Assembly: GCA_002762985.1 (NCBI GenBank) | Contig: PCXZ01000032.1 | Location: 1 to 64,000 of the forward strand | Length of the DNA: 64,000 bases | Direction: 5' to 3' | DNA from: Candidatus Woesearchaeota archaeon CG10_big_fil_rev_8_21_14_0_10_44_13 | GTDB lineage: Archaea > Nanobdellota > Nanobdellia > Woesearchaeales > UBA12501 | In this document: one piece after another, positions 4,028-7,900 of the stretch | Layout: each line of letters starts with the position of its first letter | Position numbering within the stretch: position 1 is the first letter of the stretch | Notes under the pieces: generated by a model | Told to the model about the DNA's origin: nothing | Seen by the model: only the letters and a program-made list of their open reading frames with translations | The model's database searches: none | Translations under genes and position numbers: made by a program

Positions 4028-5767
4028 ATGGCACAGACAAAACTTGCAGAAGAGAAAAATGGTGATAGGCCGATAGCGCATGAGCTGGCAAAACAACAGA
4101 GAGAGATTTCTGTCGCTGAATTCTTCGAGAAAAACAGGCATCTGCTGGGATTCAACAATCCCAGGAAAGCATTGCTTACTGCGATCAAGGAAGCCGTAGA
4201 CAACAGCCTTGATGCATGCGAGGAAGCCAAGATCCTTCCAGAGCTGCATATCGAGATGATAGATATGCAGAATGACAGGTTCAGGATAATAGTTGAAGAC
4301 AATGGCCCTGGCATAGTGAAAAGCCAGATACCGAACATCTTCGCAAAGCTCCTCTATGGATCGAAATTCCACAGGCTCAAGATGGGCAGGGGCCAGCAGG
4401 GGATAGGGATAAGCGCTGCTGCTCTCTACGGCCAATTGACGACAGGAAAACCCATCAAGATAAAGTCAAAGATCTCACCGAAGGATCCTGCGCATTATTA
4501 TGAGCTGCATATAGACACCCAAAAGAACAAGCCTGAAGTCGTGAAGGAGGAGATTGTCGAATGGAAAAAGGAGCAGGGGACAAGGATAGAGCTTGATCTT
4601 GAAGGGATCTACCAGAAAGGCCCGCAATCAGTAGACAATTACCTGAAGCAGACTGCAATCGTAAACCCCCATGCGACCATAATCTACACAAACCCGAAAG
4701 CTGAACAGATAATATTCGCAAGAGCCACAAATGTATTGCCTAAAGAGCCCAAGGAGATAAAGCCGCATCCTTACGGCGTTGAGATAGGGATGCTGATGAA
4801 GATGATGAAGAACACAGAGGGCAGGACAATGCAGAGCTTCTTCGCAAATGATTTCTCGAGAGTAAGCCCGGGTGTAGCAAAAGAGATCTGCACAAAGGCA
4901 GGCATACTGCCCAATTCCGGCCCGAAGTCAATGACAAGGGAGCAGGCAGAACGCATAATAAATGCGATAAAGGACACAAAGATAATAGCCCCACCCACAG
5001 ACTGCGTCTCCCCTATAGGAGGTGAAGACCTGAAAAAAGGGCTTAAGAAGGAGATAAATGCGGAATTCTATTGCGCCACAACAAGGCCGCCGGCAGTCTA
5101 CAGGGGCAATCCGTTCATAATAGAGGTTGCGATAGCTTACGGAGGAGAACTCGGCCAGGAGGATACTGTCAAGATAATGAGATTCGCGAACAGGGTTCCT
5201 CTGCTGTACCAGCAAAGCGCCTGCGTGTCTACTGAAGCGATAATAGACACTAACTGGAAATCCTATGGCCTGCAGCAGAGCAAGGATTCAATGCCATACG
5301 GGCCTGCAGTGATATTGGTGCATATGGCCTCAGTATGGGTGCCTTTCACATCAGAAGCAAAAGAGGCTATCGCCCATTATCCTGACATCACAAAAGAGAT
5401 CAAGCTGGCTTTGCAGGAATGCGGAAGGGAATTGCTTAAGTACACTGCAAAGAAAAGGAAATACAGCGATGAGCTGAAGAAAAGGGGGTATATCGAGAAA
5501 TATATCCCTTTCATAGGGGAAGTTCTCAAAGACCTCCTTGACCTGAAGAAGAGCGATGAGGAGAATATCGAAAAAAACCTCAAAGAGCTGCTTGAGAAGA
5601 GCAGAGGAAAACTCGAGGATGTTGCTGAAGAGAACGCCGAGTATGATGAAAGTTTCGCAAAGATAGGCGCAGAGAAAGAGAGCGAAGAAGAGCCTGAAGA
5701 AGGCAGCGACGAAGATGCTGACAAAGAGAGCGGCAAAAAATCCAAGAAGAGGGCAAAAGATGAATAA
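4028..5767 (+). CDS. top6B: DNA topoisomerase VI subunit B
   Basis: ATPase subunit of the type IIB topoisomerase that relaxes and decatenates DNA. The GHKL ATP-binding fold is clear: EAVDNSLDACEE (E55, N59), VEDNGPGI (90-96) and the lid GRGQQGIGISAAALYGQ (120-136). The H2TH and transducer regions follow. The last 60 residues are a Glu/Lys-rich acidic tail (roughly 520-579), low complexity and longer than in many homologues. At 579 residues the length is normal for the family. The start at 4028 is the first in-frame ATG. Its stop overlaps the start of top6A by 8 nt, so the two subunits are translationally coupled. Confidence 0.97.
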   Translation: MAQTKLAEEKNGDRPIAHELAKQQREISVAEFFEKNRHLLGFNNPRKALLTAIKEAVDNSLDACEEAKILPELHIEMIDMQNDRFRIIVEDNGPGIVKSQIPNIFAKLLYGSKFHRLKMGRGQQGIGISAAALYGQLTTGKPIKIKSKISPKDPAHYYELHIDTQKNKPEVVKEEIVEWKKEQGTRIELDLEGIYQKGPQSVDNYLKQTAIVNPHATIIYTNPKAEQIIFARATNVLPKEPKEIKPHPYGVEIGMLMKMMKNTEGRTMQSFFANDFSRVSPGVAKEICTKAGILPNSGPKSMTREQAERIINAIKDTKIIAPPTDCVSPIGGEDLKKGLKKEINAEFYCATTRPPAVYRGNPFIIEVAIAYGGELGQEDTVKIMRFANRVPLLYQQSACVSTEAIIDTNWKSYGLQQSKDSMPYGPAVILVHMASVWVPFTSEAKEAIAHYPDITKEIKLALQECGRELLKYTAKKRKYSDELKKRGYIEKYIPFIGEVLKDLLDLKKSDEENIEKNLKELLEKSRGKLEDVAEENAEYDESFAKIGAEKESEEEPEEGSDEDADKESGKKSKKRAKDE

Positions 5768-6839
5768 GGTCGTAAAGGGGATAAAGGATATTGTAGGGGA
5801 TGTATATGACAAGATAATAAAAAAGAAAAGCCCAAACCTGGATATCCCCCTGAGGTCATTGCAGAACGTCTCTTATGATCCTAAAAAAGGCTATTTCGAG
5901 CTTAAAGGAAAGCTAATCTCAAGGACCCTCACTGCTTCGACGGTAAAGACATTCGCACAGACACTGCTCATGATGAGGGAATCAAAGAATATCGTAGAGA
6001 CAGATGACATAGCGACAAAGAGAGAGATATATTATGTGAGCAAGAACTGGGGGGATGCGATGTTCCATGAACAGCCTGAATCAGACACTGTTATGGATGA
6101 CATCGAGGCCATGATGTCTGTGAACAGGGAGCAGCTTGGATTCATCCCTGAGGAAAAGGGAGGGGATGTGGCAGGCAGGCTCATAGTGATAGACAAGGAT
6201 GAATCGGGCAAAGAGCTCAGGATAGACTGCACAAGATTCGGCTCCGGCGCTTACTCGATCCCGAGCTCAGTGGAAGAATTAAAGTTCGAGACTGAAGCCA
6301 AGTTCATACTTGCGATAGAGACTGCAGGTATGTTCCAGAGGTTGGTGAAGCATGGCTACTGGAAGAAGGCAAGCTGCATCCTAATCAGCATGGGCGGTGT
6401 GCCTACAAGAGCCTGCAGAAGGTTCATCAGGAGGCTCAGTGATGAGAGAAAACTGCCTGTCTATGTCTTTACTGACGGAGATCCCTATGGCTTCCTCAAC
6501 ATCTACAGGACACTGAAGGTCGGCTCTGGAAACGCTGCACACATAAACCAGTTCTTCTGCGTCCCGCAGGCGAAGTTCATAGGAGTGACCCCGCAGGACA
6601 TAATAGATTACAAATTGCCCACTCACCCGTTGAAGGATGTGGATATCAAGAGGATAAGGGATGGGATAAAGAACGATCCTTTTGTCAAGGAATACAAGGA
6701 GTGGGAAAGGGCATTGAATCTCATGGTCAAACTGGGCAAGAGGGCAGAGCAGCAGGCATTCGCAAAATATACCCTGAATTATGTGATTGACACGTACCTG
6801 CCGGAAAAATTAAAGAACCAGAAGAGCTGGCTGCCTTAA
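5760..6839 (+). CDS. top6A: DNA topoisomerase VI subunit A (Spo11-like)
   Basis: DNA-cleaving subunit, 359 residues, forming an A2B2 enzyme with the upstream product. The winged-helix CAP domain contains KREIYYVSKNWG (about 88-98); one of the adjacent Tyr91/Tyr92 should be the catalytic tyrosine, by analogy with Spo11. The Toprim domain shows the acidic residues in FILAIETAG (E187) and VFTDGDPYG (D239, D241). I place the start at the ATG at 5760, which overlaps the top6B stop, because the in-frame Met at 5715 lies inside the acidic tail of top6B and adds 15 unrelated residues. No unusual insertions are seen. Confidence 0.96.
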   Translation: MNKVVKGIKDIVGDVYDKIIKKKSPNLDIPLRSLQNVSYDPKKGYFELKGKLISRTLTASTVKTFAQTLLMMRESKNIVETDDIATKREIYYVSKNWGDAMFHEQPESDTVMDDIEAMMSVNREQLGFIPEEKGGDVAGRLIVIDKDESGKELRIDCTRFGSGAYSIPSSVEELKFETEAKFILAIETAGMFQRLVKHGYWKKASCILISMGGVPTRACRRFIRRLSDERKLPVYVFTDGDPYGFLNIYRTLKVGSGNAAHINQFFCVPQAKFIGVTPQDIIDYKLPTHPLKDVDIKRIRDGIKNDPFVKEYKEWERALNLMVKLGKRAEQQAFAKYTLNYVIDTYLPEKLKNQKSWLP

Positions 6840-7418: not shown

Positions 7419-7492
7419 TATTAAATGCCTAAAGCGATGGCCTTAAACCTCTCACAACCTTTATAAATTATATGCTTAATTCTCAGTATTGT

Positions 7493-7681
7493 GGGCCCGT
7501 AGCCTAGCCTGGGAACGGTTTACAGCCGATTGGGCAAATAAGGCACCAGCCTTCTATTGGGCAATGTTCAATCGCTTTAAACATAAGTCCAAGGGTAAGC
7601 TGGGGATCGAGGGTTCAAAAGAGACCGTTATATGCGCATTGAGCATAGAAGCAACGTCTCATGAAAGTCCCTTCGGGCCCG
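7493..7681 (+). tRNA. tRNA-Arg(UCU) with three introns
   Basis: The mature tRNA can be assembled from four exons: 7493-7512, 7538-7556, 7598-7619 and 7668-7681. Acceptor GGGCCCG pairs with CGGGCCC; the D stem is GCCT/AGGC; the anticodon stem is CCAGC/GCTGG with anticodon TCT at 7553-7555; the T stem is GAGGG/CCCTT. The discriminator is G and a full CCA is not encoded. Introns fall in the D loop (7513-7537), at 37/38 (7557-7597) and in the T loop at 59/60 (7620-7667). Each junction pair fits a bulge-helix-bulge with 3-nt bulges and a 4-nt central helix: GCCT/GGGC, CTTC/AGGG (one mismatch) and TTCA/TGAA. A TATA box TTTATAAAT lies about 7460-7468. Exact junctions may shift by 1-2 nt. Confidence 0.92.
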
Positions 7682-7781
7682 CATTTTTAATATTATCTTA
7701 TGTTGCCGACTAATAAATGTCAATAAAAACAAGTTAGATTAAAGGCAAAAAAATATAAATGGGCCAATAAACTTGAGGGGT

Positions 7782-7900
7782 GGCGACGTAGCCAAACGGC
7801 TAAGGCAAGAGGCTGCAAAGGTATGATAAGGCTGCATCAAGAATGCATCCTTATAAGATACAGATCCCTCTCATTCTGGGTTCAAATCCCAGCGTCGCCT
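7782..7900 (+). tRNA. tRNA-Cys(GCA) with one intron
   Basis: Acceptor GGCGACG/CGTCGCC, D stem GCC/GGC, anticodon stem AGAGG/CCTCT, T stem CTGGG/CCCAG. The anticodon GCA (7815-7817) and discriminator T (7900) are the identity marks of tRNA-Cys. The intron is 7819-7865 at the canonical 37/38 position. It folds into a strong internal hairpin (ATAAGG/CCTTAT enclosing TGCAT/ATGCA). The central helix CTGC/ACAG has one mismatch. Promoter AAATATAAAT at 7751-7760. A run of seven T follows immediately and probably ends transcription. Confidence 0.95.

Follow-up and report, generated by a model that had tools for sequence, protein, structure and literature searches.

A tRNA-Arg(UCU) gene interrupted by three introns lies at positions 7493-7681 (+ strand) of the stretch of DNA analysed here (the window; 64,000 nucleotides of contig PCXZ01000032.1, assembly GCA_002762985.1) from Candidatus Woesearchaeota archaeon CG10_big_fil_rev_8_21_14_0_10_44_13, and comparison of its exons with related genomes confirms, at the level of sequence, that the gene is real. 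The four exons join into 75 nt once introns of 25, 41 and 48 nt are lost, and we consider it very probable that this is a functional, single-copy tRNA gene whose transcript is spliced three times by the endonuclease EndA and joined by the ligase RtcB. The genes for topoisomerase VI B (4028-5767) and A (5715-6839) lie upstream, and a tRNA-Cys(GCA) gene starts 100 nt past its end. The features of the locus, by position in the window, are as follows.

7460..7469, + strand: TATA-like box TTTATAAATT, 5' of the tRNA-Arg(UCU) gene
7493..7512, + strand: exon 1, with the acceptor 5' strand, the D-stem 5' strand and the D loop up to GG
7513..7537, + strand: intron 1, 25 nt, in the D loop; central helix GCCT/GGGC, 4/4
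7538..7556, + strand: exon 2, with the remainder of the D arm, the anticodon stem 5' strand and the loop up to A37
7553-7555, + strand: anticodon TCT, in exon 2
7557..7597, + strand: intron 2, 41 nt, at position 37/38; central helix CTTC/AGGG, 3/4; inner helix TGGGC/GTCCA
7598..7619, + strand: exon 3, with A38, the anticodon stem 3' strand, the variable loop, the T-stem 5' strand and TTCAAA
7620..7667, + strand: intron 3, 48 nt, in the T loop at 59/60; central helix TTCA/TGAA, 4/4
7668..7681, + strand: exon 4, with T60, the T-stem 3' strand, the acceptor 3' strand and discriminator G73
7684..7688, + strand: T5 run read from the sequence, a possible terminator, 3' of the gene
7782..7900, + strand: tRNA-Cys(GCA) with one 47-nt anticodon-loop intron; exons at about 7782-7819 and 7867-7900

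The box at 7460..7469, which we take to be TATA-like from the archaeal TATA consensus, is a putative promoter element of the tRNA-Arg(UCU) gene. Rfam, through model RF00005 (52.1 bits), found only the neighbouring tRNA-Cys(GCA) here, which ARAGORN also reported. Inspection of introns 2 and 3 of tRNA-Arg(UCU) by eye showed no box C/D guide RNA.

In the unspliced stretch 7493-7681, ARAGORN reported no tRNA whether its intron option was on or off, and the Rfam tRNA model had no match even at E<=10. On the spliced gene, ARAGORN called tRNA-Arg(TCT), and all stems pair (acceptor 7/7, T stem 5/5). The spliced 75-mer found a match at E<=0.01 in 56/60 whole genomes of relatives, and the best orthologues are uninterrupted and align without gaps over positions 1-75 (genomes G006, 92%; G002, 91%; G031, 88%). 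Together with the ARAGORN call, these alignments bear out the preliminary description in its naming of a tRNA-Arg(UCU), its three intron sites (D loop, 37/38, 59/60) and its exact 75-nt product. Matches of the 75-mer in the organism's own genome (G000; 1,515,128 bases in 36 contigs, 98.46% complete) comprised the gene's own exon pieces and tRNA-Ala(UGC), so that no second tRNA-Arg(UCU) was found there. In the 31 long open reading frames of the window, AGA accounts for 124 of the 576 Arg codons; AGG is by far the most frequent Arg codon in these frames (406/576).

The gene was also followed through related genomes by means of its neighbour top6A, whose closest matches (80 loci) belong to Ca. 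Woesearchaeota or Nanoarchaeota MAGs at 83% identity, in agreement with the earlier impression of a DPANN-like genome. In the first 18 of these loci, tRNA-Arg(UCU) was readable in 15 and not readable in L055, L056 and L060; it has three introns in L046, L048, L049, L052 and L062, two in L045, L047 and L057, one in L050, L051, L054, L058, L059 and L061, and none in L053. For L048, L052 and L062 the exons were read a second time manually, and ARAGORN accepted the spliced products. The D loop, 37/38 and 59/60 are all interrupted in L046, L049, L052 and L062, while the introns of L048 lie in the D loop, at 30/31 and in the T loop; the 37/38 intron stands at the identical place in G009/L047, L045, L046 and L049. 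Further, 31 tRNA-Arg loci, partly taken from the 75-mer search, were read by a spliced aligner as uninterrupted in 18 cases and interrupted in 13. Judged by the anticodon, four of these loci encode tRNA-Arg(CCU), so that the figures for UCU are 15 without and 12 with introns; they overlap with the counts of the 18 top6A loci (L047 is a G009 contig and L053 is probably from G002). Site 30/31 is a recurrent one in tRNA-Arg (L048, L058, L061, L152, L153), with introns that end in CGCTAA or CGCTAG. The endA gene and tRNA-Arg(UCU) are on different contigs in the window's own genome and within about 1 kb of each other in four relatives:

G006:C15:59002-59870, endA and tRNA-Arg(UCU) in proximity
G005:C82:21856-22911, the same
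G008:C113:1295-2074, the same
G004:C61:43278-44032, the same

The three junctions had been described as clean bulge-helix-bulge motifs with 4-bp central helices, which holds for introns 1 and 3, where GCCT/GGGC and TTCA/TGAA pair 4/4 between two 3-nt bulges, and fails for intron 2. Intron 3 has one extra A opposite the 5' bulge, and its inner helix (GAGAC/GTCTC with one unpaired A) is 4/4 past the unpaired base. Intron 2 has a good inner helix and, in the canonical register, a central helix of 3/4 with a mismatch (C7554 x A7592) and two G-U pairs, making it a relaxed motif at best. An alternative register for intron 2, CCTT/AAGG, has a central helix of 4/4 and was rejected, its inner helix being merely 1/4. 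When each intron was shuffled 20,000 times with the splice sites fixed and scored by central plus inner pairing, shuffles that paired as well as the observed sequence amounted to 0.6% for intron 1, 0.6% for intron 2 and 0.04% for intron 3. The 37/38 motif is thus the weakest of the three, contrary to what the labels canonical and non-canonical imply.

Folding of the whole precursor gave central-helix pair probabilities of 0.80-0.88 for intron 3, the motif of which alone is dominant, about 0.16 for intron 1 and about 0 for intron 2, and, with weak pairs allowed to open, a structure that holds the motifs costs 3.2 kcal/mol more than the minimum. The 3/4 central helix of intron 2, its near-zero fold probability and the low value of intron 1 count against cutting at all three sites; given these low probabilities, removal of every intron would have to depend on the order of splicing or on assistance by proteins.

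Evidence for the T-loop motif extends beyond this gene. In a set of 29 T-loop introns (13 from G000 and 16 from relatives), sites were placed by acceptor and T-stem pairing only, which succeeded without recourse to the motif for 26, each without ties, and failed for one G006 copy. Four central pairs are present in 21 of the 26 placed introns, and two Gly genes outside the 26 are also 4/4. Base 57 and its intron partner form A-U in 12 of the 26, G-C in 10 and G-U in one, with three mismatches (A-C twice, A-A once); the permutation P was 0/20,000 for pairing and 0.0001 for Watson-Crick pairing. This covariation indicates that the motif is real, and the 26 rows represent fewer events, since the introns of L048 and L049 are identical, as are two Val introns.

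The gene is one of many interrupted tRNA genes in its genome. As read here, G000 has 42 tRNA genes, of which 33 are interrupted by 45 introns (32 genes with 44 introns, plus tRNA-Leu(UAA) in L159) and nine are uninterrupted, that is, 1.07 introns per tRNA gene. For comparison, the available text of PMC8450103 gives Thermoproteales a value of 0.84 and counts 71 introns among the 46 tRNA genes of Pyrobaculum calidifontis. Rfam reports 24 tRNAs above cut-off in G000 against the 42 genes read, and queries with G006 tRNAs exposed hidden genes that are split mostly in the T loop. Because ARAGORN defaults and Rfam miss many tRNAs here, MAGs of the group will look tRNA-poor. The G000 introns are at 59/60 in 13 cases, in the D loop in four and at 53/54 in two, with the remainder in or near the anticodon arm. 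Central helices are 4/4 at 11 of the 13 T-loop sites, three of the four D-loop sites and both 53/54 sites, and mostly 3/4 or less at 37/38, where some borders, those of Cys, Ala(CGC), Leu(GAG), Ser(GCT), Ile(TAT) and Lys(TTT), were set by eye and are perhaps off by one. A second triple-intron gene in G000, tRNA-Ser(GGA), has introns at 37/38, 53/54 and 59/60; at this locus (L263:2500-2760; G000:C11, minus strand) the two T-arm introns are separated by a six-base exon, TTCAAA. Many orthologues in G006 are uninterrupted, among them Gly(GCC), Gly(UCC), Gln(UUG), three Val, Ser(GGA), both Met and Arg(UCU). Among the mostly uninterrupted tRNAs of G006 there is also a cluster of extra tRNA-Ser-like genes with T-loop inserts (L253, L255, L256, L258), one of which, L255, has a poorly paired acceptor stem.

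A single splicing-endonuclease gene was found in G000; its product, EndA, has 199 aa with domains PF02778 and PF01974 and is alpha-type by domains and size. One RtcB ligase gene is present. The best solved-structure match of EndA is the alpha subunit of Nanoarchaeum equitans (3iey_A, 134.5 bits), followed by Methanocaldococcus jannaschii 1a79. It lacks the Crenarchaea-specific loop, a 10-residue insertion in Sulfolobus tokodaii EndA (2cv8), and no such insertion was seen by eye in the EndA frames of 20 loci. At E<=10, PF01974 has one match in G000 and one each in 39/40 genomes. The beta-subunit model NF007086, with which Sulfolobus acidocaldarius was detected as a positive control, gave no separate subunit above cut-off in 21 genomes; in G000 it matches EndA itself and, at 15.9 bits, a site inside a 546-aa frame, and this second weak match, like one of 16.6 bits in G016, looks like chance. 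Since no beta subunit was found, EndA presumably acts as an alpha homotetramer, and the earlier expectation that the non-canonical introns need an endonuclease of broad specificity is unsupported by this single loop-less enzyme. An unrecognised second subunit or loop that broadens its specificity, as that expectation assumed, seems unlikely: the N. equitans alpha subunit does work with a beta subunit, and a gene could lie hidden in a contig gap region (1.5% incompleteness), but the single PF01974 match and the NF007086 search with its positive control speak against it.

Alpha-only enzymes are described as confined to strict motifs in the available text of PMC4033280 and PMC6379350, and efficient removal of relaxed motifs is ascribed only to alpha-beta and epsilon enzymes in that of PMC6379350 and PMC12397907. 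Intron 2 is not strict, which counts against the reading that EndA cuts all three sites, and its C-A mismatch and weak G-U pairs would suit a case in which an alpha-type EndA cannot cut all of them and one intron is retained or removed by another RNase. We hold this to be very improbable, because the 75 positions are ungapped in uninterrupted relatives, so that a tRNA which kept the intron would differ from all its orthologues, and the 37/38 introns of four relatives stand at the same place.

Similarities among the introns suggest that they have spread. Among the 78 pairs of own T-loop introns, compared with the constrained 3' end removed, six were similar at p<=0.01, against 0.78 expected from shuffles; similar pairs include Arg(UCU)-Gln(UUG) and Arg(UCU)-Gly(GCC), and the T-loop introns of Val(GAC) and Val(UAC) are identical. 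The T-loop intron of Gln(UUG) shares an element of 67 bases with the D-loop intron of Ile(UAU) (93%) and the anticodon intron of Ala(CGC) (91%). This element also occurs in the genome outside tRNA genes, and the relative L045 has an identical copy of its hairpin part within the D-loop intron of tRNA-Arg(UCU). The element was located at:

L261:265-331, 67-base element
L260:517-581, the same
L019:1543-1606, the same
L045:5214-5251, its hairpin part
G000:C14:18140, the same
G000:C33:5608, the same

Such sharing resembles the intron transposition of Thermoproteales (Fujishima et al. 2010, as cited in PMC4090602) and is consistent with a transposition-like spread, for which the statistics are moderate and the mechanism conjectural. 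At L282:1200-1560 (G000:C22, minus strand), a tRNA-Ser 5' fragment followed by the repeated element lies just upstream of an intact tRNA-Ser(UGA), and a tRNA-Ser 3' fragment lies downstream. That tRNA-Arg(UCU) is itself a decayed pseudogene with acquired insertions, AGA being read by another tRNA, is scarcely credible: one insert is similar to other introns of the genome and to a dispersed repeat in it, and Rfam and plain ARAGORN fail to recognise the locus, but exon conservation largely refutes it, with every stem paired after splicing, an intact orthologue in G006, no other copy found and the same architecture at the syntenic locus of other species.

A triple-intron gene as such is of a known kind, and an intron-rich DPANN tRNA set was not found described in the literature searched. 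Judged by titles and the opening of abstracts, no paper listed in that search, outside which subscription papers largely lay, was on tRNA introns in Woesearchaeota or DPANN. The earlier statement that triple-intron tRNAs are known mainly from Thermoproteales is outdated, given two Asgard lineages described in 2024 and the five further Woesearchaeota loci reported here. In Thermoproteales (Pyrobaculum; Sugahara et al. 2007/2008, as cited in PMC4090602), tRNAs likewise have up to three bulge-helix-bulge introns at canonical and non-canonical sites, those listed in PMC4090602 including 59/60, 53/54, 30/31 and 20/21; however, these archaea belong to another phylum and have an alpha-beta EndA with the Crenarchaea-specific loop that is absent here. 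The Asgard Atabeyarchaeia and Freyarchaeia, a different lineage, resemble G000 in that most tRNA genes are interrupted (92-95%), many of them repeatedly and at non-canonical sites, according to the available text of PMC11291895. ARMAN-2 is also a small-genome DPANN-type archaeon with non-canonical introns, but its EndA is described as a three-unit epsilon-2 enzyme with its own loop (PMC4033280, PMC12397907, in the parts available), whereas here it is a one-unit alpha protein. Nanoarchaeum equitans also belongs to DPANN, and among solved structures its EndA alpha subunit comes closest to the enzyme described here; it has, in addition, a beta subunit and tRNA genes that are split, in contrast to the contiguous gene of G000, for which no beta subunit was found.

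On the reading that we favour, the tRNA-Arg(UCU) gene would be transcribed with all three introns, a single alpha-type EndA would, as a homotetramer, cut at the D-loop, 37/38 and 59/60 bulge-helix-bulge motifs, RtcB would join the exons into the 75-nt tRNA, and the mature tRNA would read AGA, plus AGG by wobble. The sequences themselves demonstrate its basis, namely exon identity, exact joins, motif pairing, T-loop covariation, one EndA and one RtcB. The three introns are probably part of a wider gain of tRNA introns in the lineage. The T loop, with its near-invariant TTCRA, would have aided this gain, since it supplies an identical half-motif in every tRNA.

Intron-rich tRNA sets have been linked to loop-bearing EndA types in reviews (PMC4090602, PMC6379350, PMC12397907, in the parts available), and G000 looks like an exception to this tie. 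Chances seem to us about even that a loop-less, alpha-only EndA processes a tRNA set of which about three-quarters is interrupted, several genes two or three times, by way of strict motifs at unusual sites and relaxed ones at 37/38; so plain-looking an enzyme is not expected to handle such a genome-wide spread. This genome and its relatives, which look intron-rich and have a loop-less alpha enzyme, make the idea of enzyme-intron co-evolution directly testable. If this reading is true, the rule that intron spread needs alpha-beta or epsilon enzymes would be broken, and the near-invariant T loop would be a landing site of spreading introns.
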